Positions 32,878-42,801 of a stretch of 43,221 nucleotides of DNA are shown here, in pieces (the stretch's first letter is position 1; each line of letters opens with the position of its first letter). The notes beneath the pieces were generated by a model, which ran no database searches, was not told the origin of the DNA, and saw only the letters and a list, made by a program, of their open reading frames with translations. The DNA lies in the NCBI GenBank assembly GCA_014238205.1, contig JABABM010000020.1, positions 1-43,221 on the forward strand. The letters run 5' to 3'. Both the position numbers and the translations under genes were made by a program. Origin of the DNA: Phycisphaerales bacterium. Its GTDB lineage: Bacteria; Planctomycetota; Phycisphaerae; Phycisphaerales; SM1A02.

Positions 32878-32958
32878 AACCGCTCCATGAGGCTGGCATC
32901 TCCCTCTTGAAGGAAGAAATACGTCGACGACGCCGTTGCCCACTGCTACGGTGACTTG

Positions 32959-35900
32959 ATGGGAGCAGGAGACCGGAACATCGCCAAAGTACTCATGTTG
33001 GCAGCAGTCATCAGCCTGGTGTTGCCCTCAACCATGGCCCACACTCGTGGTGGAGCCTTCGTCGTGGAACCCTTCCTCGGCAAGGCGACACCGACATCGA
33101 TGCACATCGCCTGGGAAACCGCCCTCAATCTTTCGACGAGCGTTGAGTACGGCACGAGTGAGCAGCTTGGCCTCACGGCAACCGGCACGTCCATCACCGG
33201 CTCGGGCGCCGGGTATATCCACCACGTCGATCTGGAGGAACTCGCCCCGGACACTCCCTACTTCTACAAGTGCGTATCCGGAGCCTACGAGACCCCTATC
33301 TACAGTTTCCGAACCCCGCCACCCGGACCGACCGGAGACCTGTTCACCTTCGTGGCCTATTCCGATTGCCAGACCGGCAATGTCTACAGCAAGCACGAGG
33401 AGGTCGTCAACGACGGCATCCTCGACTACTACGCCGCCACCTATGGTGGCGCCATCGAGGACACGCTCTCCTTCACACTGGTTCCAGGCGACCTGGTCAG
33501 CACGGGGTCCTCGCACAGCCAGTGGGTCAACGAGTTCTTCGGCCAGTCGCAGAACCTCCATCGGCACGTACCCCTGTACCCGGCCCTGGGAAATCACGAG
33601 GCGAATGCCAACCTCTACTACATGTACTTCGACCTCTTCGAGAATGCTCCTGCCGGTCTTGAAGAACACTGCTACTGGTTCGACTACCAGAACGTCCGCG
33701 TGATCACCCTGGACTCCAACAGTCCCTGGGACTCGCAGCAGCAACTGGACTGGTTGGACGGAGTACTGGACGACGCATGCTCAAATGATGACATCGACTT
33801 CGTCTTTGCGCAATTCCACCACCCACACAAGTCCGAATCATGGACACCCGGCGAGTCCGGGTTCTCGACCGCAGCGGTCGAACTGGTCGAGCAGTTCTCC
33901 AGCGACTGCGGCAAGCCCTCGATCCACTTCTACGGACATACACACAGCTACAGCCGCGGCCAGAGTCGAGACCACGATCACCTCATGGTCAACGTCGCAT
34001 CAGGCAGCGGCTCTCTGGACTACTGGTGGCACTATCCCAACAACGACTACGACGAGTTCCAGATCACACTCCAGGAATGGGGATTCGTCCAGATGGAAGT
34101 CGGGACCGGCGACGTTCCCTGGCTGCGACTGCGACGGATCAGTCGTGGCAATGACTACGTTCCACTCGACAACGTGATCACCGACGAAATCGTCATCCGC
34201 GCAGACAACCAGTCGCCCGGAACCCCCCAGGGCGTCTCTCCCACGCTGGCCGATGGGCCTGTCATCGGCGACGGCGTGGTTCTGCAGGGGTCGGCCTACG
34301 GTGATCCCGACGGAGATCCGGGCCTGGAGAGCCACTGGCAGGTCGCAGAATCAACCAACGGATTCGATACGCCCGTCAGCGACTCGTGGAAGAGGCGGGA
34401 AAACTGGTATCGACCACCCAATGGAGATGGGTGGTACAGCGTCAACACCGTGGAGGACCCGGATATCACGCGTACGGTGCTGGATGCACCGGTACCAGGA
34501 TGCACGACGCTCTACTGGCGGGTCCGGTATCGGGACGAGGTCCTCGGCTGGAGCGACTGGTCCAGCCCGGTCGCTTTCGAGGTCGGCGAGTCAAGCGAAG
34601 GAGCGAATGCCCCGGTTCCAACCGACGAGGCAGAGGGAATTTCCACGGAAACACAACTGCAATGGAATCCCTGTGATCCGGCTGATCTCTACGACGTCTA
34701 CCTGGGTACCCAGGAACTCCTGGGTCCAGGCGACTTCCAGGGCACCGTCTCGGGAACCTCATGGGACCCTGACACACTTGAACTCCATACCACCTACTTC
34801 TGGCGAATCGACCGGCATGAAGGAGATGACATCGTCACGGGACCTACCTGGTCCTTCACGACCATGCGACCGCTTCCGACACGCTCGACGACTGAATGGC
34901 GATTCGATGATGAGTTGCCGGGTGACGAGGTGGTGTTGCATGCTGCCCACGGTTCCTCCGACCTTGTACCCACCGGCATGGACTTGGGCAGTGACTGGTT
35001 GATTGGTTTTACAGATGGCTTCTGGGTACCGCACATCGACGGCATGCAGGCAACCTACATCCAACTCGATGATGTCCATGGTGCCAACCGGGGTCTTCGA
35101 ACCGTGCTGGATGCCGAGGGAGACGGACAGGGCAACCTCGACCAGTTCACCTTCGTCTGGGATCTGTACATCAGCCCGACATCCAGCAGCGGAAAGCAGG
35201 CGCTCTGGCAGGGCAACGACTCCAACTCCAACAATGCGGAGTTCTTCCTGGACTTCGAGACAGGTGGATTCTGGCTCAATGGTGGCACTGGAGCCGTCGG
35301 TGAAGATCTCTGGCCGCATGGGGAATGGTTCCGGCTCGTCCACCGCGTTGATTACACCAATGACACCTCCGCCATCTTCGTCAACGGGACCAAGGTGCTC
35401 GGTGATGATGAACTGGGGGCACCGGACTGGCTCTGGTGCGGCAACACGGATGGAGTCTGGCTGCTTTCCGATGACGGTCCAGCCAGCGAAGTGGGTCTCG
35501 TACGCTGCGCACATGTCGCCATCGTGGATCTGCTGGTACCGGACGCCTCGATCGAACAACTGGGTGGTCCGGATGCACGTGGCATCTTCATCGACCGAAG
35601 CGAGTGGCGCTTTGATGACGAAAATCCAGCGGATGGCGCGCCTCTTGCGAGGTCGCATGGCACAAGCGAACTCGTCCCGACCGGCATGCAGCATGGTGTC
35701 GACTGGGGCCTGGGGATGACCAACGGCCTCTCGGTGCCGCACATCAACGGGGCACCTGCCTCGTTCATCTGGATGGACAACGTCCATGGTGCCAACCGTG
35801 GCCTGTCCACCTTGTGGCAGGCCATGGCGAACGGTGGCGGAGACAGCATCGATGTCAATGAATACACCCTCATCCTTGATCTCCATGTCGACACGGCCCA

Positions 35901-36471
35901 GGACCAATTGCAGGCGCTCCTCCAGGGCAACGACTCCAACTCGAATGATGCCGAGTGGTTCCTCGACTGCACGACCGGCGGCTTCTACCTTGCTGGAACC
36001 GGGTACATCGGCGAGAACATGTGGCCCCAGGGTGAGTGGTTCCGGATCGCGCTCCGTGTCGACTACCCGGACAGCGCCGCCCTCTTCGTCAATGGAACCA
36101 AGGTCCTCGATGATGATCAACTTGCTGCACCGGACTGGATGTGGGGTGCTGATTCAGGGCTCAGGATCTGGCTGCTCTCGGACAACGGACCCGACTACGA
36201 CGTCGGGTTCATCCGCTGCGCGAACGCAGCCCTCGTCGATGGGCTCATGCAGGACGTGGAACTCTTCAACCTTGGTGGACCCGATGCCGGCGGCATCTTC
36301 ATCGAGACCGAGGAACATGACCCGGCGGATCTCAACCAGGATGGCCTGGTCAATGTCACGGACCTGCTCATCGTGATCGGAGGCTGGGGTGGCCCCGAGG
36401 GTGATATCAATGGAGACGGGACGACCGATGTCACCGACCTGTTGATGGTTATCGCTTCCTGGTCGACCTGA
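32959..36471 (+). CDS. Secreted metallophosphoesterase with two LamG-like repeats and dockerin
   Basis: The protein has 1170 residues from the ATG at 32959. After a signal peptide comes a fibronectin-like purple-acid-phosphatase N-terminal domain (about 35-115). A calcineurin-like phosphoesterase domain follows with GDLVSTG, GNHEAN, QFHHPHK and GHTHSYSRG. The first metal motif reads YSDCQ, so the third position is not the usual His or Gly. A second fibronectin-like region comes next, then two tandem repeats of about 236 residues that each begin with EWRFDDE and end with LGGPDA-GIFI and resemble LamG/concanavalin-like domains. A C-terminal double dockerin-like module ends the chain (LNQDGLVNVTDLLIVIGGWG and INGDGTTDVTDLLMVIASW). 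It is probably an extracellular phosphatase. Confidence 0.88.
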   Translation: MGAGDRNIAKVLMLAAVISLVLPSTMAHTRGGAFVVEPFLGKATPTSMHIAWETALNLSTSVEYGTSEQLGLTATGTSITGSGAGYIHHVDLEELAPDTPYFYKCVSGAYETPIYSFRTPPPGPTGDLFTFVAYSDCQTGNVYSKHEEVVNDGILDYYAATYGGAIEDTLSFTLVPGDLVSTGSSHSQWVNEFFGQSQNLHRHVPLYPALGNHEANANLYYMYFDLFENAPAGLEEHCYWFDYQNVRVITLDSNSPWDSQQQLDWLDGVLDDACSNDDIDFVFAQFHHPHKSESWTPGESGFSTAAVELVEQFSSDCGKPSIHFYGHTHSYSRGQSRDHDHLMVNVASGSGSLDYWWHYPNNDYDEFQITLQEWGFVQMEVGTGDVPWLRLRRISRGNDYVPLDNVITDEIVIRADNQSPGTPQGVSPTLADGPVIGDGVVLQGSAYGDPDGDPGLESHWQVAESTNGFDTPVSDSWKRRENWYRPPNGDGWYSVNTVEDPDITRTVLDAPVPGCTTLYWRVRYRDEVLGWSDWSSPVAFEVGESSEGANAPVPTDEAEGISTETQLQWNPCDPADLYDVYLGTQELLGPGDFQGTVSGTSWDPDTLELHTTYFWRIDRHEGDDIVTGPTWSFTTMRPLPTRSTTEWRFDDELPGDEVVLHAAHGSSDLVPTGMDLGSDWLIGFTDGFWVPHIDGMQATYIQLDDVHGANRGLRTVLDAEGDGQGNLDQFTFVWDLYISPTSSSGKQALWQGNDSNSNNAEFFLDFETGGFWLNGGTGAVGEDLWPHGEWFRLVHRVDYTNDTSAIFVNGTKVLGDDELGAPDWLWCGNTDGVWLLSDDGPASEVGLVRCAHVAIVDLLVPDASIEQLGGPDARGIFIDRSEWRFDDENPADGAPLARSHGTSELVPTGMQHGVDWGLGMTNGLSVPHINGAPASFIWMDNVHGANRGLSTLWQAMANGGGDSIDVNEYTLILDLHVDTAQDQLQALLQGNDSNSNDAEWFLDCTTGGFYLAGTGYIGENMWPQGEWFRIALRVDYPDSAALFVNGTKVLDDDQLAAPDWMWGADSGLRIWLLSDNGPDYDVGFIRCANAALVDGLMQDVELFNLGGPDAGGIFIETEEHDPADLNQDGLVNVTDLLIVIGGWGGPEGDINGDGTTDVTDLLMVIASWST
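34891..36306 (+). repeat. Internal tandem duplication within the metallophosphoesterase gene
   Basis: Two consecutive units of about 709 bases (from about 34891 and from about 35600) encode related LamG-like domains. Shared landmarks in the same order are EWRFDDE, LVPTGM, VPHI-G, D-VHGANRGL, LQGNDSNSN, GEWFR, FVNGTKVL, WLLSD-GP and LGGPDA. The units are diverged, so this is an old duplication, not a recent or unstable one. Confidence 0.85.
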
Positions 36472-36659
36472 GAAACCCCCGTGATACGACTCCCAGGGAT
36501 ACTCAAACCATCATGCCCCCATACAAAGGCGTGAAGTCCCCGTTTCGGGCTTGATCTGCATGGTCGCATCATCGAAATTGGGTATTCAAAGGGGATATGC
36601 TCCAACACTCCACGTAGAGTCGAGTAAGCCAGGGGATGTCCGAGGGAGAGCACGATCAC

Positions 36660-37715
36660 ATGAATATCAACCAACTGGTCATACCGGCCATCGCATCGAT
36701 GGCACTTGCAACCGGGACGATGGCCGATTCATCGACCGGCCTTGGCTGCGATGGGGATTGCACACGTGATGGCCAGGTGAATGTGGACGACCTGCTGTCC
36801 GTCATCAGTTCCTGGGGCCAGAACGGCTGCGACGTCAATGACGATGGCATCACGAATGTCAATGAACTGCTCCGGGTCCTCAACGAGTGGAATGCAACAT
36901 GTCATCCCTTCATGACGAACCACCCGCTTGGACTCAGTGTCGAGTTCGACTACGACGCCGGATTCGCCATCATCAGCGCAACCGGCCTGGCCGACCACCC
37001 GATGGGTCCCTTCGACGGCTCGACCGGCTGCTCCAACCCGAACACCCCCACGAACCAGAACGATGAGTGGATGATCCCACTCTTTCCCACCCCGACGAGC
37101 AACCCCTCAGTCGATGTACTCGATCAAATGGGTCCAATCGGCATCTGGTACAACGGCGTCGCCTTCTACAACCCCTACGACGGTGGCGGTGTGGAAGCAC
37201 CCGGCAACATCTGCATGGATGATTACAACGGGCACCCCTCGCCTGATGGCCGATACCACTACCACCAGTATTCACCCGTCGCAGCCGACGATGGCGACGG
37301 GCATTCACCTATCCTCGGCTACGCCTTTGATGGCATTCCTGTCTGCGGACCATGGGAAAGCAATGGCATCGTGGCAGCGGCTTCGAAGAACCCGCTCGAT
37401 GACTGCAACGGCCATGAGCATGCCGATGGTTCATACCACTACCACTCCATCTCGTACGAACTTGCCGTCGATCTCGGGCTGCCCGGCGAAGGCTTCCCCT
37501 GGGTCATCGGTTGCTTCCACGCTGAGCCCGAAACTTCCAACTTCGAAGGTGGAGGGGGTCCCCCACCTCCCCCGGGCGGATGCGATGGGTGTGCCCAGAA
37601 CATGATTCCGCCGGCGATCTGCAACTGTGTACACACGGTCCCGGGCTATGAATACTGCTGCGAGAACTGGGATGCAGCCTGCCAGGCCTATGCAGATGCA
37701 AACTGTCTGCCATGA
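36660..37715 (+). CDS. Secreted YHYH-domain protein with N-terminal dockerin-like module
   Basis: The protein has 351 residues from the ATG at 36660, with GAGGGAGAG upstream. A signal peptide (NQLVIPAIASMALATGTMA) is followed at once by a double dockerin-like module (CTRDGQVNVDDLLSVISSWG; VNDDGITNVNELLRVLNEW). The main domain, about residues 90-300, is the YHYH domain: two YHYH motifs (GRYHYHQYSP and GSYHYHSISY) flank GYAFDGIPVCGPW. The clustered histidines suggest metal binding. A Gly/Pro-rich linker and a Cys-rich tail (CDGCAQNM, CENWDAACQAYA) complete it. The role of YHYH proteins is poorly known. The dockerin position at the N-terminus contrasts with the C-terminal placement in its neighbours. 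Confidence 0.9.
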   Translation: MNINQLVIPAIASMALATGTMADSSTGLGCDGDCTRDGQVNVDDLLSVISSWGQNGCDVNDDGITNVNELLRVLNEWNATCHPFMTNHPLGLSVEFDYDAGFAIISATGLADHPMGPFDGSTGCSNPNTPTNQNDEWMIPLFPTPTSNPSVDVLDQMGPIGIWYNGVAFYNPYDGGGVEAPGNICMDDYNGHPSPDGRYHYHQYSPVAADDGDGHSPILGYAFDGIPVCGPWESNGIVAAASKNPLDDCNGHEHADGSYHYHSISYELAVDLGLPGEGFPWVIGCFHAEPETSNFEGGGGPPPPPGGCDGCAQNMIPPAICNCVHTVPGYEYCCENWDAACQAYADANCLP

Positions 37716-37742
37716 GTTGCATTGTCACCCGTTGATACGCCG

Positions 37743-38363
37743 ATGAGACCAGCGATCATGCCGGTTACGTTGACAATTCGACTCCACCTGCCCCTCATGC
37801 TTGCGTTCCTCGTTTTCGGCCTTCTGCAGGCCGGCTGCTCATCGGATCAGGAAGAGCAGTTCGTCGACGTCACAGGTACCCCCCATTCCCCGCTGCATGG
37901 ATCGGAAGGTGACCTGGTCGTCATCATCTTCTCCAGCACCGACTGCCCCATCGCCAACGCCATGGCCCCGGAACTCGAACGTGCTCACCAGGAAGCCGTT
38001 GGACAGGGAGGCCGCTTCTACCTCGTCCATGCTCGAAGGGATCTGCAGGATGCCACGGCGGTCAAACACGCCTCGGAGTACTCACTGAGCATGCCGGTGC
38101 TGATCGACCATGATCATGCACTCGTTGAGCATTTCGATGCAAAGGTCACACCCGAGGCATTCGTACTGCAGTTCACGGGACCAGATGAATATGAAATTGC
38201 CTACACCGGAAGTATCAACAACCTCTACGGTTCAGTTGGCAACCGTCGCACAAAGGCGACCGAGCACTACCTGCGCGAAGCAATCACATCGATATCAACC
38301 GGTAACAACATCGAAGTGAAAGAACGCCAACCCTTCGGCTGCTTCATCGAGCGGGAACAATGA
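37743..38363 (+). CDS. Thioredoxin-fold (redoxin-like) lipoprotein
   Basis: The protein has 206 residues from the ATG at 37743; the ATG at 37758 is an alternative. A signal peptide ends in the lipobox LQAGC. The thioredoxin-like domain reads VVIIFSSTDCPIANAMAPEL, with a single cysteine (C68) in the active-site turn instead of CxxC, then VTPEAFVL, the cis-Pro strand region. This CPIAN type is common in planctomycete redoxin domains, where it often sits in the same polypeptide as cytochrome c and Cu-monooxygenase-like domains. Here its stop overlaps the start of exactly such a gene (ATGA at 38360-38363), so the two products probably work together outside the cytoplasm. Confidence 0.83.
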   Translation: MRPAIMPVTLTIRLHLPLMLAFLVFGLLQAGCSSDQEEQFVDVTGTPHSPLHGSEGDLVVIIFSSTDCPIANAMAPELERAHQEAVGQGGRFYLVHARRDLQDATAVKHASEYSLSMPVLIDHDHALVEHFDAKVTPEAFVLQFTGPDEYEIAYTGSINNLYGSVGNRRTKATEHYLREAITSISTGNNIEVKERQPFGCFIEREQ

Positions 38364-39658
38364 AGCTGGTCCTGCTGCTGCTGCTGGGACAGGCTGCGCC
38401 GGCTGTCGAACCCGGCACGTGGTCGACGTCTGCCCTCCTCATCGAGCAACACTGCAGTGCCTGCCACAGGGACGACGGCGCAGCCCCCTTCACCCTCCTG
38501 ACCTACGACGATGTCAAGCGACGTCGCAGCTTCATCGCGAGCGTGCTCAAGCAGAAACTGATGCCCCCATGGCTGCCCGCCAGCAGCGGCCTTGATCTTC
38601 ACGGCAACCGGACCATGCCGGAGGAGGATCGAACGCAATTGATTTCCTGGTTGGAAGCAGGTGCGCCGGTTGGAACCGGCGATGCACCGCCACCGATCAA
38701 GCCCATGATCCCGATGCCGTTCCCCGAGGAGTCGATCGCGGTCGAGATGACGGAACCATTCATCATCCCGGCCGAAACGGTCGAGACCGAGCACCGCTAT
38801 CACGAGGACACCTGGTCCTTCGTCATGCCCGTCGAAAACAAGGCCCCCCTGCGAATTCGTGGATTCGGCTGGGAAACCACAGCCCCGGAGGCAGTGCACA
38901 CGATCACGCTGCTCTTCGATGGACAGGGCCGGGGCAGGGAACGTGACAAGTACGACCCGAGACCCGGTTACGAGATGACCGGCGACCTGAACCGGGACGT
39001 GTCCGGTACGAATGGAGGTGTCGGCATCGGAATGGACCGGATGATCCTTCCCAAGGGCTTCCACTGGTCACTGCCAGCCAATGCAGACCTGGTTGCCGAC
39101 GTGCGATACCGACCAATCGGTCGAGAAGTCCAACTGAACGACACGATCCACCTGTTCCCCACCGAGGAAGAGGATTCAAGAGAGATCATTGCAGTTCTTA
39201 CAGCGGTCAATCGCCTGAAGGTTCCCGTCGGTGAAACGGACCATGTCGCCGAGGACCGGTTCACGCTGCCTGCAGCCATGGATGTCGTCGCCATCCTGCC
39301 CAAGGCACGCAACGAGTGTCGATCGATGCAGCTCTCGGCCATCCTGCCCGATGGTGACACACGAATCCTGCTCGATATCCCCCAGTGGGATGGACACTTC
39401 CGAAGGCCGTTCGTCCTTGAGGACGTCCTGCACCTGCCAGCCGGCACGACGCTGCACAGCCGGTTCGTCATAGACAACTCGACACAGAACCCACGCAATC
39501 CCTTCGATCCCCCGGAAGATCTTCGCATCGGCAAACGAACCGGCGCCGCCGCCTTCACGCTCCTTGGAGCAGGCACGGATCAAGCGGGCAGTGATGCCCT
39601 TGTTGAACTGAGCCAGTGGACGATGGATCGCAGGGGAAGCCGAACACGCAAGCCCTGA
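38360..39658 (+). CDS. Cytochrome c / Cu(II) ascorbate-dependent monooxygenase-like protein
   Basis: The protein has 432 residues. A short signal peptide (KLVLLLLLGQAAPA) is followed by a monohaem cytochrome c domain with EQHCSACH (C32, C35, H36) and LMPPW as a possible distal ligand region. From about 115 the chain resembles the peptidylglycine alpha-hydroxylating-monooxygenase-like domain of planctomycete fusion proteins, ending in the characteristic LPAGTTLHSRFVIDNSTQNPRNP (in pieces: LPAGTTLHSRF and DNSTQNPRNP). Histidine residues such as AVHTIT could bind copper. The ATG overlaps the stop of the redoxin lipoprotein. Oxidation of an extracytoplasmic substrate is plausible; the substrate is unknown. 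Confidence 0.82.
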   Translation: MKLVLLLLLGQAAPAVEPGTWSTSALLIEQHCSACHRDDGAAPFTLLTYDDVKRRRSFIASVLKQKLMPPWLPASSGLDLHGNRTMPEEDRTQLISWLEAGAPVGTGDAPPPIKPMIPMPFPEESIAVEMTEPFIIPAETVETEHRYHEDTWSFVMPVENKAPLRIRGFGWETTAPEAVHTITLLFDGQGRGRERDKYDPRPGYEMTGDLNRDVSGTNGGVGIGMDRMILPKGFHWSLPANADLVADVRYRPIGREVQLNDTIHLFPTEEEDSREIIAVLTAVNRLKVPVGETDHVAEDRFTLPAAMDVVAILPKARNECRSMQLSAILPDGDTRILLDIPQWDGHFRRPFVLEDVLHLPAGTTLHSRFVIDNSTQNPRNPFDPPEDLRIGKRTGAAAFTLLGAGTDQAGSDALVELSQWTMDRRGSRTRKP

Positions 39659-39667
39659 AGTGCTTCG

Positions 39668-40672
39668 TCAGTGCGCCTCGTCCTGGATGCGCTTTACCAG
39701 ATCAGGATCATCCGGAAGCAGGCCTGACCCTGCAAGCCTCGGGACCACCTCGACCCAGATTGGCTCCACGTGGAAGACACGGTGGAAGATCGGCAAGGCT
39801 TCGTCCACCTTGCCGGCACCGACGAGGGAGACGGCGTACCAGAAGGGAATCTCGATGATCTGTGGCGCCAGTTGTTCAGCCGTCTTGAACTCCTTCGCCG
39901 CCAGTTCGAAATCACCATGGCTGATTGCCACGTCGCCGTCATTCATGTGGTTGTAGGCACGCTGGACCTGGACCAGTCGCTTCAGTTCCTGCACGGGCTG
40001 TGGATGGTCCTCTACGCGCAGGTCGAAGACCCGGTCATTCCATGGCGAACCGGAGGATTCGCCCTTGACGATGAGCATCGCGGCCGACTGTCTTCCGCGA
40101 ATATCACCGCCCTCGTTCTCCGCAGCCTCAAGCGCCGCGACCATGCGCGCCGCCATGTCACCCTTTGTCGAGCGATAGGCCTCGGCCATCGCATCCCAGA
40201 CCGTGTCCTTCTCCATGAGGTTGGCCTGCACGGAGAACTGGTGCTCGGCATCGACGATCTGTCCTGCCATGGGGATGCAGTCGGCTCCCGTAAACGCCAT
40301 GACACGACCCTGTGAATCGATCATGGCGACCTGGCGAAGTTCCCGGCCCTCGTCACTGACCAGCAGGCCCTTGAGCGCATCGGGCGCGCTGATACCGGCC
40401 CGCATCATGTCAAGGCCGAGTGGGCCGTAGTTGGGATTCACGAGTGATTGGGTCGCCACCGCGCCCACGTCAGCCTCGGCCCAGGTGACGATGGAGCCAA
40501 CCGAGAACCAGTGCGACTGCACTGCCACACCAAGTTGACCGCTGGCAGGATCGCGGGCCACGATCGAGTAGGTCGTGACCAGTGGTTCACGGATCCCGGC
40601 CTTCTCAACGGTTGAAGAGGTTGAACACCCTGCCAACAGCAGGCAGGCCAGGATTGCATGAAGTACTCGCAT
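39668..40672 (-). CDS. DUF1028 (Ntn-hydrolase-like) lipoprotein with TPR-like tail
   Basis: The protein has 334 residues with a lipobox LLAGC. The DUF1028 domain occupies about residues 33-220: TTYSIVARDPASGQLGVAVQS, ADVGAVATQSLVNPNYGPLGLD, then TGADCIPMAGQI and GDIRGRQSAAMLI. This fold is related to Ntn hydrolases, but no enzyme activity is established for most members. Residues 235-330 are helical with TPR character (GDFELAAKEFKTAEQLAPQ; GKVDEALPIFHRVFHVEP). It is the only minus-strand gene between 29444 and 42801. It is convergent with the cytochrome gene (9-base gap) and divergent from the Cys-rich repeat gene. Confidence 0.9.
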   Translation of the reverse strand: MRVLHAILACLLLAGCSTSSTVEKAGIREPLVTTYSIVARDPASGQLGVAVQSHWFSVGSIVTWAEADVGAVATQSLVNPNYGPLGLDMMRAGISAPDALKGLLVSDEGRELRQVAMIDSQGRVMAFTGADCIPMAGQIVDAEHQFSVQANLMEKDTVWDAMAEAYRSTKGDMAARMVAALEAAENEGGDIRGRQSAAMLIVKGESSGSPWNDRVFDLRVEDHPQPVQELKRLVQVQRAYNHMNDGDVAISHGDFELAAKEFKTAEQLAPQIIEIPFWYAVSLVGAGKVDEALPIFHRVFHVEPIWVEVVPRLAGSGLLPDDPDLVKRIQDEAH

Positions 40673-40821: not shown

Positions 40822-42801
40822 ATGAAGAGCGATCGATCCAACGCGTGGCGCTCCATGCTTTTCATAGTGTGCTCGTTGTTCCTGGTCACGGGAATGGCCT
40901 TGGGCGATCCATGTGATGACGATCCCTGCTACGACTGGGACTGCCCTGACTTCGATGAGTGCGCGTGCGGCTGGGCCGACCCGTGCGATCCAAGTTGCGG
41001 TGGAGATCCGTGTGATCCATCCTGCGGTGGAGATCCGTGTGATCCGGCATGCGGTGGAGATCCGTGTGATCCGGCATGCGGTGGTGGCGATCCATGCGAC
41101 TGTGGCTGGGAAGATCCATGCAACTGCCCGGGATGGGAATGCATTGATTGGTGCCCAGGCAGCGATCCATGCAGTGAAAACTGCGTGACGGATCCCTGCG
41201 CCGATCCAAATGGTGATTGCTATGACGTCTGTGATTGCACGTACTGTCAGGACCCCGACTGCCCGGACTACGACGAGTGCTACTGCTACGGGGGCACACT
41301 TGAATGCAACCCGCTGTGCGAGTTCTACAACGGCCCCTGCAACCCCGAATGCCCCGAGTACATCCCATGCAACCCGGAATGCGATGATTATGACCACTGC
41401 TCCTGCTACCCCTGCGACTCGGGCTGTGGCGGCGACGATCCATGCAATCCAGAATGCGGTGGTGATCCCTGCGATCCGGACTGCGGCGGTGACCCATACT
41501 GTGATCCAGCCTGCGGCGGTGACCCCTGCAGCGCGAAGTGTGGTGGTGATCCCTGCGTCGTATTCGGCGAATGCTGGGACCCCTGCGACACCTCCTGCCC
41601 GGACTACGACCCCTGCCTCTGTGATCCACCCAGTTGTACTCCTCCAGTCAATGATGATTGTGAAGACTACACCGGCCTCTTCGATGGATTTACAACCTTC
41701 GACACCACCAATGCAACAACCGGTCCCCCACAGGGTGATTTCGATCAGTGCGAGAATTTCGGGAACATCAATGTCTACAACGACATCTGGTACAAGTACG
41801 TCCCGGAATGTTCAGGGACTCTCACTCTCTCAACCTGCGACGAAGCACCATTCGATACCCGGATCGCCTTGTACGACGCACCACCCTGCGACGATGGCGG
41901 CCAGATGCTTGACTGCAATGACGATGGACCCGGGTGCAGCAACTACACCTCCATCCTCCAGTTCGAGGTGACAGGTGATACACCCTACATCGTCAGGCTC
42001 GGCTCCTATGGCGGGGGCGGTGGAGGTGGCGGCCGCATCTTTGTCCAGTGTGTCGCCCCACCCAATGACTGCCAGGACGATCTCCCGGACTGCCCCTCCG
42101 ACATCAATGACGATGGCACCACCGACGTGCTGGATCTTCTCGGGGTTCTTGATGGGTGGGGTCAAACCGGTCCGCCACGCCCCGCAGGCGACTGTGCACC
42201 GGGTGACACGGGCGACTGCGTAGTCGATGTCCTCGACCTGCTGGAAGTCATCAGTGCATGGGGATCCTGCAACTGCACCGATCCCTGCAACCCCGACTGT
42301 GACAACTACGATCCATGCCACCCTGACTGCGGAGGAGATCCCTGCGAGTGTGGATTCGGTGATCCCTGCGAATGCGGCTGGGGCGATCCCTGCGAATGCG
42401 GTTGGAGCGATCCATGCGATCCGGATTGTGGTGGTGACCCCGACTGTGATCCAGCCTGCCCGGACTACGATCCGTGCTACTGCGATCCAGATCCATGCAA
42501 TCCCGACTGCCCGGAATACGACGAGTGCGATTGCGACCCCGATCCGTGCAATCCCGACTGCTACACCTACGACGAGTGCTACTGCAACCCGGATCCATGC
42601 AACGAAATCTGCCCGGACTACGACGAGTGCGAATGCAACCCCGATCCATGCAACTACGACTGTCCGGACTACGACCCGTGCGCATGCGGCGATGGAGATC
42701 CGTGTGAATGCGGCTGGGGCGACCCCTGCGAGTGCGGTTGGGGTGATCCATGCGAATGCGGCTGGGGTGATCCCTGCGAATGCTTTGGTGACTGCCCCTG
42801 A
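40822..42801 (+). CDS. Secreted Asp-Pro-Cys repeat protein with central beta domain and dockerin-like module
   Basis: The protein has 659 residues from the ATG at 40822 (GGGGAGAGGAAG upstream); the longer reading from 40675 lacks a site and adds no signal peptide. After the signal peptide (SMLFIVCSLFLVTGMALG) come about 245 residues built on D-P-C units such as GGDPCDPAC (9 residues) and variants with CPDYDEC. A beta-rich domain of about 140 residues (VNDDCEDYTGLFDG to GGRIFVQC) resembles PPC-like extracellular domains. A double dockerin-like module follows (INDDGTTDVLDLLGVLDGWG; VVDVLDLLEVISAWG), then more D-P-C repeats, ending in four perfect or near-perfect GDPCECGW octads. It is probably an extracellular, disulfide- or metal-stabilised protein. 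No known family covers the repeats. Confidence 0.85.
   Translation: MKSDRSNAWRSMLFIVCSLFLVTGMALGDPCDDDPCYDWDCPDFDECACGWADPCDPSCGGDPCDPSCGGDPCDPACGGDPCDPACGGGDPCDCGWEDPCNCPGWECIDWCPGSDPCSENCVTDPCADPNGDCYDVCDCTYCQDPDCPDYDECYCYGGTLECNPLCEFYNGPCNPECPEYIPCNPECDDYDHCSCYPCDSGCGGDDPCNPECGGDPCDPDCGGDPYCDPACGGDPCSAKCGGDPCVVFGECWDPCDTSCPDYDPCLCDPPSCTPPVNDDCEDYTGLFDGFTTFDTTNATTGPPQGDFDQCENFGNINVYNDIWYKYVPECSGTLTLSTCDEAPFDTRIALYDAPPCDDGGQMLDCNDDGPGCSNYTSILQFEVTGDTPYIVRLGSYGGGGGGGGRIFVQCVAPPNDCQDDLPDCPSDINDDGTTDVLDLLGVLDGWGQTGPPRPAGDCAPGDTGDCVVDVLDLLEVISAWGSCNCTDPCNPDCDNYDPCHPDCGGDPCECGFGDPCECGWGDPCECGWSDPCDPDCGGDPDCDPACPDYDPCYCDPDPCNPDCPEYDECDCDPDPCNPDCYTYDECYCNPDPCNEICPDYDECECNPDPCNYDCPDYDPCACGDGDPCECGWGDPCECGWGDPCECGWGDPCECFGDCP
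40984..41098 (+). repeat. 27-base coding repeat (GGDPCDPAC units)
   Basis: Tandem near-identical units of 27 bases beginning GGTGGAGATCCGTGTGATCC encode GGDPCDPSC or GGDPCDPAC. At least four copies follow each other, the first part of the large repeat protein. The period is a multiple of three, so unit gain or loss keeps the frame. Confidence 0.85.
42692..42788 (+). repeat. 24-base coding repeat (GDPCECGW units)
   Basis: Successive 24-base units encode GDPCECGW near the C-terminus of the repeat protein; third-codon positions vary (gatccatgc, gacccctgc, gatccctgc), so the amino-acid sequence is conserved more than the DNA. A shorter run of the same unit lies at about 42344-42412. Confidence 0.83.

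Follow-up and report, generated by a model that had tools for sequence, protein, structure and literature searches.

Cys-rich exported proteins that are cross-linked by disulfides have been described in a related phylum, the chlamydial OmcA and OmcB being examples; to our knowledge these carry no tandem Asp-Pro-Cys (DPC) arrays. Metallothioneins are also high in Cys and rich in CxC motifs, and they are poor in Tyr and Trp. A third point of comparison is the octapeptide copper-binding repeat PF03991, whose copper ligand is His, present once per repeat. The protein described here resembles OmcA/OmcB in being Cys-rich and, putatively, exported, and no Pfam match links it to them. It shares with metallothioneins the abundance of CxC and of Cys, but it is far larger, putatively exported, and rich in Tyr, Trp, Pro and Asp. 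With PF03991 it has in common a period of eight residues in which Gly and Trp recur in register, whereas Cys, Asp and Glu stand in place of His, so that the likeness is one of composition and homology is putative at most. No description of the DPC repeat family was found in the literature searched. The family is real, selected, narrowly distributed and unnamed.

Gene Layout and Distribution

The window, that is, the whole stretch of 43,221 nucleotides that was analyzed, encodes a DPC protein of 659 aa whose ATG start has a G/A-rich stretch directly 5' of it (Table 1); a promoter and terminator scan gave nothing above chance. Among the 31 ORFs called in the window, the one that holds it stands apart by its Cys content (15.8%, against 7.1% for the next and a median of 1.6%), and the net charge of the whole protein is about -141. 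A hydrophobic helix is predicted at residues 8-19 of the putative signal region in the AlphaFold model of the whole protein.

Table 1. Positions of the DPC gene, its parts and its neighbors in the window
Feature	Position	Strand	Remarks
YHYH protein (PF14240)	36636..37715	+	same block in G004, G074, G050
Redoxin-like protein (PF00578), apparent lipoprotein	37722..38363	+	same block in G004, G074, G050
Cytochrome-c-like protein, 432 aa (weak PF13442)	38360..39658	+	same block in G004, G074, G050
DUF1028 protein	39668..40672	-	between cytochrome-like gene and DPC gene
DPC gene, whole	40822..42801	+	start Met and signal region identical in the G004 orthologue
Putative signal peptide, residues 1-28	40822..40905	+	by-eye reading
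Array A, residues 29-273, 54 Cys	40906..41640	+	9-residue GGDPCDPAC-type and 8-residue GDPCDCGW-type units
Conserved non-repeat Cys core within array A	41224..41421	+	alignment A2
Beta domain, about residues 273-419, PF23759 GBD_T9SS_assoc-like	41638..42078	+	profile score, predicted strands
Dockerin-like module, about residues 420-484	42079..42273	+	two EF-hand-like segments, profile scores below cut-off
Array B, residues 485-659, 42 Cys	42274..42798	+	GDPCECGW units; conserved end DPCEC[FW]G(D/E)
Three 17-residue units of DPCNPDCPEYDECDCDP type, in array B	42490..42642	+	CxxxC plus CxC; lag-17 self-match peak
Bacterial globin (PF01152), truncated by contig end	42814..43221	-	neighbor of DPC gene

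Carriers of the family, searched for with a DNA pattern of three units, amount to 7 of the 181 genomes of the same GTDB family (4 of 45 genera): G000, the genome of the window, and G004, source of the same-genus orthologue (g1); G050 and G074 (g7); G034 and G559 (g34); and G527 (g18). A profile of the conserved core of array A (A2, built from 9 copies in 7 genomes) matched the same seven and, among 397 genomes drawn from the class, none besides that of the window. A tblastn search with array B found matches in 5 of the 121 family genomes compared, that of the window included, and, among 392 drawn from the phylum, in that of the window alone. A recent expansion without conservation in relatives, against which the first-pass annotation had set its reading, is thus not what these carriers show. 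They fall into two clades: in clade I (g1, g7) the beta domain is present, whereas clade II (g34, g18) is without it but retains the core, the EF-hand-like segments and DPCECWG at the C-terminus. The homologue in G050 (L037 and L212) is split over two contigs with N runs, and its unit number is not countable.

Across the collection of genome contigs, the three-unit pattern matched at least 116 stretches. Among the 116 matches listed, plus 14 viral ones, that were translated, at least 20 DPC in one frame together with the core occurred in three (L039, L043 and L059), all Phycisphaerales/Phycisphaerae metagenome assemblies that correspond to G034, G527 and G559. A wide spread was therefore rejected, the remaining listed matches being out of frame, simple repeats or Cys-rich proteins of other kinds. 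A viral origin was discarded as well, since none of the 16 stretches of viral contigs that fitted the pattern was confirmed by the core profile and PHROGs gave nothing, as was a plasmid origin, tblastn having found no match in plasmids.

Repeat Arrays and Cysteine Pairing

The mature protein contains 32 Asp-Pro-Cys motifs; shuffling its residues 2000 times gave a mean of 3.0 and never more than 11. The open reading frame, its coordinates and its two D-P-C arrays are as the first-pass annotation had given them. The periods of 8 and 9 residues that it proposed are recovered as well: self-match is highest at lag 9 for array A (0.27, where shuffles reach 0.21 at most) and at lag 8 for array B (0.37, where they reach 0.27 at most). 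It made no mention of the 17-residue unit of array B, which consists of one CxxxC pair and one CxC pair and gives a second peak of 0.36 at lag 17, likewise above the shuffled maximum of 0.27.

The arrangement of the Cys residues, which the first-pass annotation had outlined loosely, follows a simple grammar. From one Cys to the next, a short gap of 1 or 3 is followed by a long one of 4-6, so that CxC and CxxxC pairs lie 4-6 residues apart. Six proteins were compared in which both arrays are complete, a set without G050, whose sequence is interrupted by N runs and a contig end. Across their 12 arrays, this alternation holds for 0.81-0.95 of steps, against a shuffled mean of 0.51; in 11 arrays no more than one shuffle out of 2000 did as well, and in the shortest 32 did. 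The most regular of the 8-residue arrays is that of G527. After DPC, the next Cys follows at spacing 1 in 92 and at spacing 3 in 61 of 178 units (together 153), and exactly two Cys precede the next DPC in 131 of the 178. Cys numbers are 54, 56, 48, 44, 44 and 54 in arrays A and 42, 44, 34, 14, 38 and 42 in arrays B, hence even in 12 of 12, with array boundaries set by flanking motifs within the counting script and related sequences that are not independent trials. Even numbers are expected if units are gained or lost as closed pairs. In composition, the 12 arrays are 20-26% Cys and 17-22% Asp, with at most 0.4% Lys and 0.6% Arg; Tyr and Trp are common, and His is zero in most arrays, G559 included, and reaches 1.2% at the maximum.

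The Beta Domain and the Dockerin-Like Module

The domain between the arrays had been proposed to be PPC-like. No PPC model was found at E <= 10 with 8 domain sequences, and the domain instead resembles the galactose-binding-like PF23759 (GBD_T9SS_assoc), scoring 25.2 bits in the window, 26.5 in G074 and 27.2 in the G004 orthologue for a cut-off of 27. Strands are predicted at residues 315-411 in the AlphaFold model, with low confidence. The arrays are unrelated to PF23759, clade II is without the domain, and the copy in the window stays 1.8 bits short of the cut-off. Elsewhere in the same genome (G000:C8:40899-42740; L002-L004), an open frame of 1225 aa carries four tandem PF23759-like beta-domain matches.

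The dockerin-like module, for its part, retains two EF-hand-like segments with one helix each, predicted by AlphaFold at 436-445 and 470-479, in the manner of dockerin type I (PF00404) and of the GC-type (NF041540). The module misses both cut-offs (20.5 against 22.9 bits for PF00404; 16.8 against 29 for NF041540) and is internal in the DPC protein. A cohesin-dockerin complex was accordingly rejected: the PF00963 cohesin occurs in 0 of the 7 carrier genomes, in a search whose control gave a match in 1 of 14 well-known genomes. A passage in PMC6461901 reports a 'Planctosome' of cohesin and dockerin in freshwater relatives. In the 2.44 Mb G000 genome, tblastn finds 49 places that match the DPC protein, mostly in its dockerin-like module; these include positions 36636-37715 and 32956-36471 of the window, and the PF00963 cohesin was not found.

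A Possible Structural Role at the Cell Surface

We tentatively favor the reading of the DPC protein as a disulfide-stapled acidic surface or matrix protein, with a confidence that stays slightly on the lower side of an even balance. We infer that the protein would be exported and, strongly acidic as it is, would form a structural or adhesive part of the cell surface or the surrounding matrix. Every DPC unit would supply a single CxC or CxxxC pair that either forms a small closed turn or is linked to the adjoining unit. Strung together, such units would yield a polyanionic rod, stiff and resistant to proteases, whose Asp residues probably serve to bind calcium as well. In clade I this rod may be anchored by the EF-hand pair together with the sugar-binding-like domain, a task that would fall to the EF-hand pair alone in clade II. 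Matrix-type modules adjoining the arrays and a core kept in 7 of 7 genomes argue for a stapled surface protein, and so do the alternating Cys gaps, the even Cys numbers of the arrays, their near-lack of Lys and Arg, the net negative charge, the purifying selection on array A and a VKOR homologue in some of the carriers. The models of low pLDDT and the missing Foldseek match speak against it. Against it also count the odd Cys totals of the whole clade I proteins (109, 113 and 109, excluding Cys in the signal peptide; the totals are even in clade II), and a presence in only 7 of 181 genomes is odd for a basic part of the envelope. A passage in PMC3072084, moreover, describes the cell walls of Isosphaera as being without Cys and Pro.

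Similarity to Known Families and Possible Metal Binding

In Pfam, the whole window protein matches PF03991 alone, at 15.7 bits for a cut-off of 32; NCBIfam and PHROGs gave nothing for it, and the PDB nothing credible. With the arrays taken singly, PF03991 scores 23.2 in array B of the window and 37.6 in array A of G559, the only one to pass; one array also has a Cornifin match below cut-off (19.3 against 34.8 bits). When the profile of array A was compared with the PDB, prion-protein chains appeared at E 0.0014 and weaker, and the core profile had no match there at E <= 10. The prion and PF03991 matches are read as a common eight-residue period of Gly and Trp, a reading suggested for PF03991 by the near-absence of His from the arrays (0-1.2%), which thus do not carry the one His per repeat of that family. 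No RTX calcium-binding nonapeptide profile was found for the window protein at E <= 1 or for array A, with 6 members, at E <= 10. The first-pass annotation could match the repeats to no named family, and these searches (Pfam, NCBIfam, PHROGs, PDB) likewise found no characterized Cys-rich family.

Structure prediction adds little. The AlphaFold model of the whole protein has a mean pLDDT of 38.6 and was not used for the fold; that of array A, computed with six sequences, reaches 58.7 and shows short helical turns at the repeat units and no strands, and Foldseek returned 0 matches to it in the PDB at E <= 10. Stacking of the beta-solenoid or antifreeze type was rejected on the strandless model and the lack of a Foldseek match, which at a pLDDT of 58.7 is mild evidence, and the models bear out no structural statement beyond the absence of a predicted beta-solenoid. 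The stacked disulfides or metal scaffold suggested by the first-pass annotation are candidate readings.

The alternative that survives best, rather unlikely as we judge it, is that of an extracytoplasmic metal binder, in which CxC and CxxxC together with flanking Asp and Glu would provide thiolate and carboxylate sites for Cu, Zn or Cd, and the protein would store or detoxify soft metals in the way of a secreted, repeat-built metallothionein. CxC and CxxxC are common metal-thiolate spacings, the eight-residue arrays do match PF03991 (array A of G559 above the cut-off, those of the window and the others below it), and the neighbors in clade I include redoxin, cytochrome-like and globin genes. 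However, that match rests on period and Gly/Trp in arrays nearly devoid of His, Tyr and Trp are frequent in them, unlike in metallothioneins, and exported thiols would tend to pair in an oxidizing space. Neither a metal family above cut-off nor a metallothionein profile at E <= 1 was found for the window protein in Pfam or NCBIfam.

Genomic Context and Possible Redox Partners

The gene order YHYH, redoxin, cytochrome-like, DPC and globin is kept in 4 of 4 clade I genomes, from two genera, with the globin of G050 located on the second contig piece. Of the seven loci compared, those of the window and G004 (g1) are the only ones with DUF1028 in this block; in g7 the block is without it. The DPC gene of clade II adjoins, in 3 of 3 genomes, a DUF1573 gene that carries a GCGC (CxC) motif. 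Its close form (at least 50% identity) occurs only in these three carriers among 22 genomes searched and is missing from 7 of 7 non-carriers of g34, where weak matches reach a best E of 5e-8 to 1e-4. Six of the 7 carriers have a distant full-length DUF1573 (E < 1e-30), but so do 6 of 15 non-carriers, and overall it therefore co-occurs only weakly; in clade I it is not adjacent to the DPC gene. A homologue of the VKOR thiol oxidase, found in four of the seven carriers, does not discriminate either, because the other three, the genome of the window among them, lack it and each of the 3 tested non-carriers has it.

This context is redox-like and not structural, which counts against the disulfide-stapled surface protein, and the redox-type neighbors in both clades are the main reason why confidence in a purely structural role is held down. 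A reading that we consider unlikely makes the protein an exported polyelectrolyte of a class of its own, assembled from interchangeable CxC and CxxxC modules, in which Asp/Cys octarepeats would stand where His octarepeats do elsewhere and would bind metal or shuttle disulfides with adjacent redox proteins (the DUF1573 CxC protein in one clade; the redoxin, the cytochrome-like protein and the globin in the other).

It is quite improbable, in our estimate, that the protein is a thiol-redox polymer, a secreted store or substrate of disulfides and dithiols working with the DUF1573 CxC protein, redoxin, globin and cytochrome-like protein encoded next to it. Redox-type neighbors do accompany the gene in 4 of 4 clade I and 3 of 3 clade II genomes, and the restriction of the close DUF1573 form to clade II carriers points the same way. 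Selenoprotein forms of PF07610 (DUF1573) with a UxC motif (OS_HP2), mentioned in a passage of PMC2398784, suggest by analogy a possible redox role for the CxC of DUF1573. Adjacency is not function, though, and the distant form occurs in non-carriers too.

Core Conservation, Selection and Repeat Turnover

Besides its repeat units, array A holds a non-repeat core of about 66 residues (PDYDECYC..GG.L.CNPLC), present in 7 of 7 homologues, which the first-pass annotation had overlooked. Selection on the protein sequence, which the first-pass annotation deduced from codon drift with kept amino acids, is borne out by the seven 8-residue units of the window, which when pooled give pS 0.80, with synonymous sites saturated, and pN 0.04. 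Between G000 and G004, dN/dS is 0.063 in array A (residues 29-165), 0.171 in the array A tail, 0.157 in the beta domain, 0.052 in the dockerin-like module, 0.029 at the start of array B and 0.146 at its end; the middle of array B (523-628), where G004 carries another block, was excluded. By these values, array A and the dockerin-like module are under purifying selection of about equal strength, and the beta domain is under a weaker one.

Array content nevertheless varies between species. In G004 and G074, array B contains a further copy of the core and its flank, and the dS between the two core copies (66 codons) is 0.45 in G004 and 0 in G074, whose duplicate is a recent copy or conversion. 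Together with the low dN/dS, these copies indicate that array units are reshuffled and copied while their residues are conserved. A neutral or slippage-driven expansion of repeats with no selected function would fit the variable content and the core copies in array B, but the value of 0.06 in array A, a range of 0.03-0.17 across the alignable segments, saturated synonymous sites among the 8-residue units, a core conserved in seven genomes and a locus shared by two genera make it most improbable.

The arrays are clearly selected, yet they have neither a family assignment that holds up (Pfam, NCBIfam, PHROGs, solved structures) nor a confident AlphaFold fold. With so simple a pair grammar, they lend themselves well to testing how bacteria make exported materials stapled by disulfides or metals, and the DPC repeat could serve as a modular biomaterial or a metal sorbent.

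DPC Arrays in Other Proteins

Asp-Pro-Cys octarepeats of the DPCAAK type also occur in small cyanobacterial proteins (L087 and L088) that begin with an apparent lipoprotein signal; in L087 the octarepeats are followed, by eye, by a thioredoxin-like CPAC motif, apparently a case of convergent DPC arrays on a redox protein. In L060 and L139, N-terminal CDPCAP arrays accompany a CxxCH heme motif near the end, again by eye, so that here too DPC arrays would sit on a redox protein. Finally, a protein of Desulfobacteraceae (L090:2415-3851, minus strand) bears a 9-residue DPCAESCAT array of CxxxC pairs followed by what by eye is a CAP/SCP-like domain, and this array looks convergent as well.
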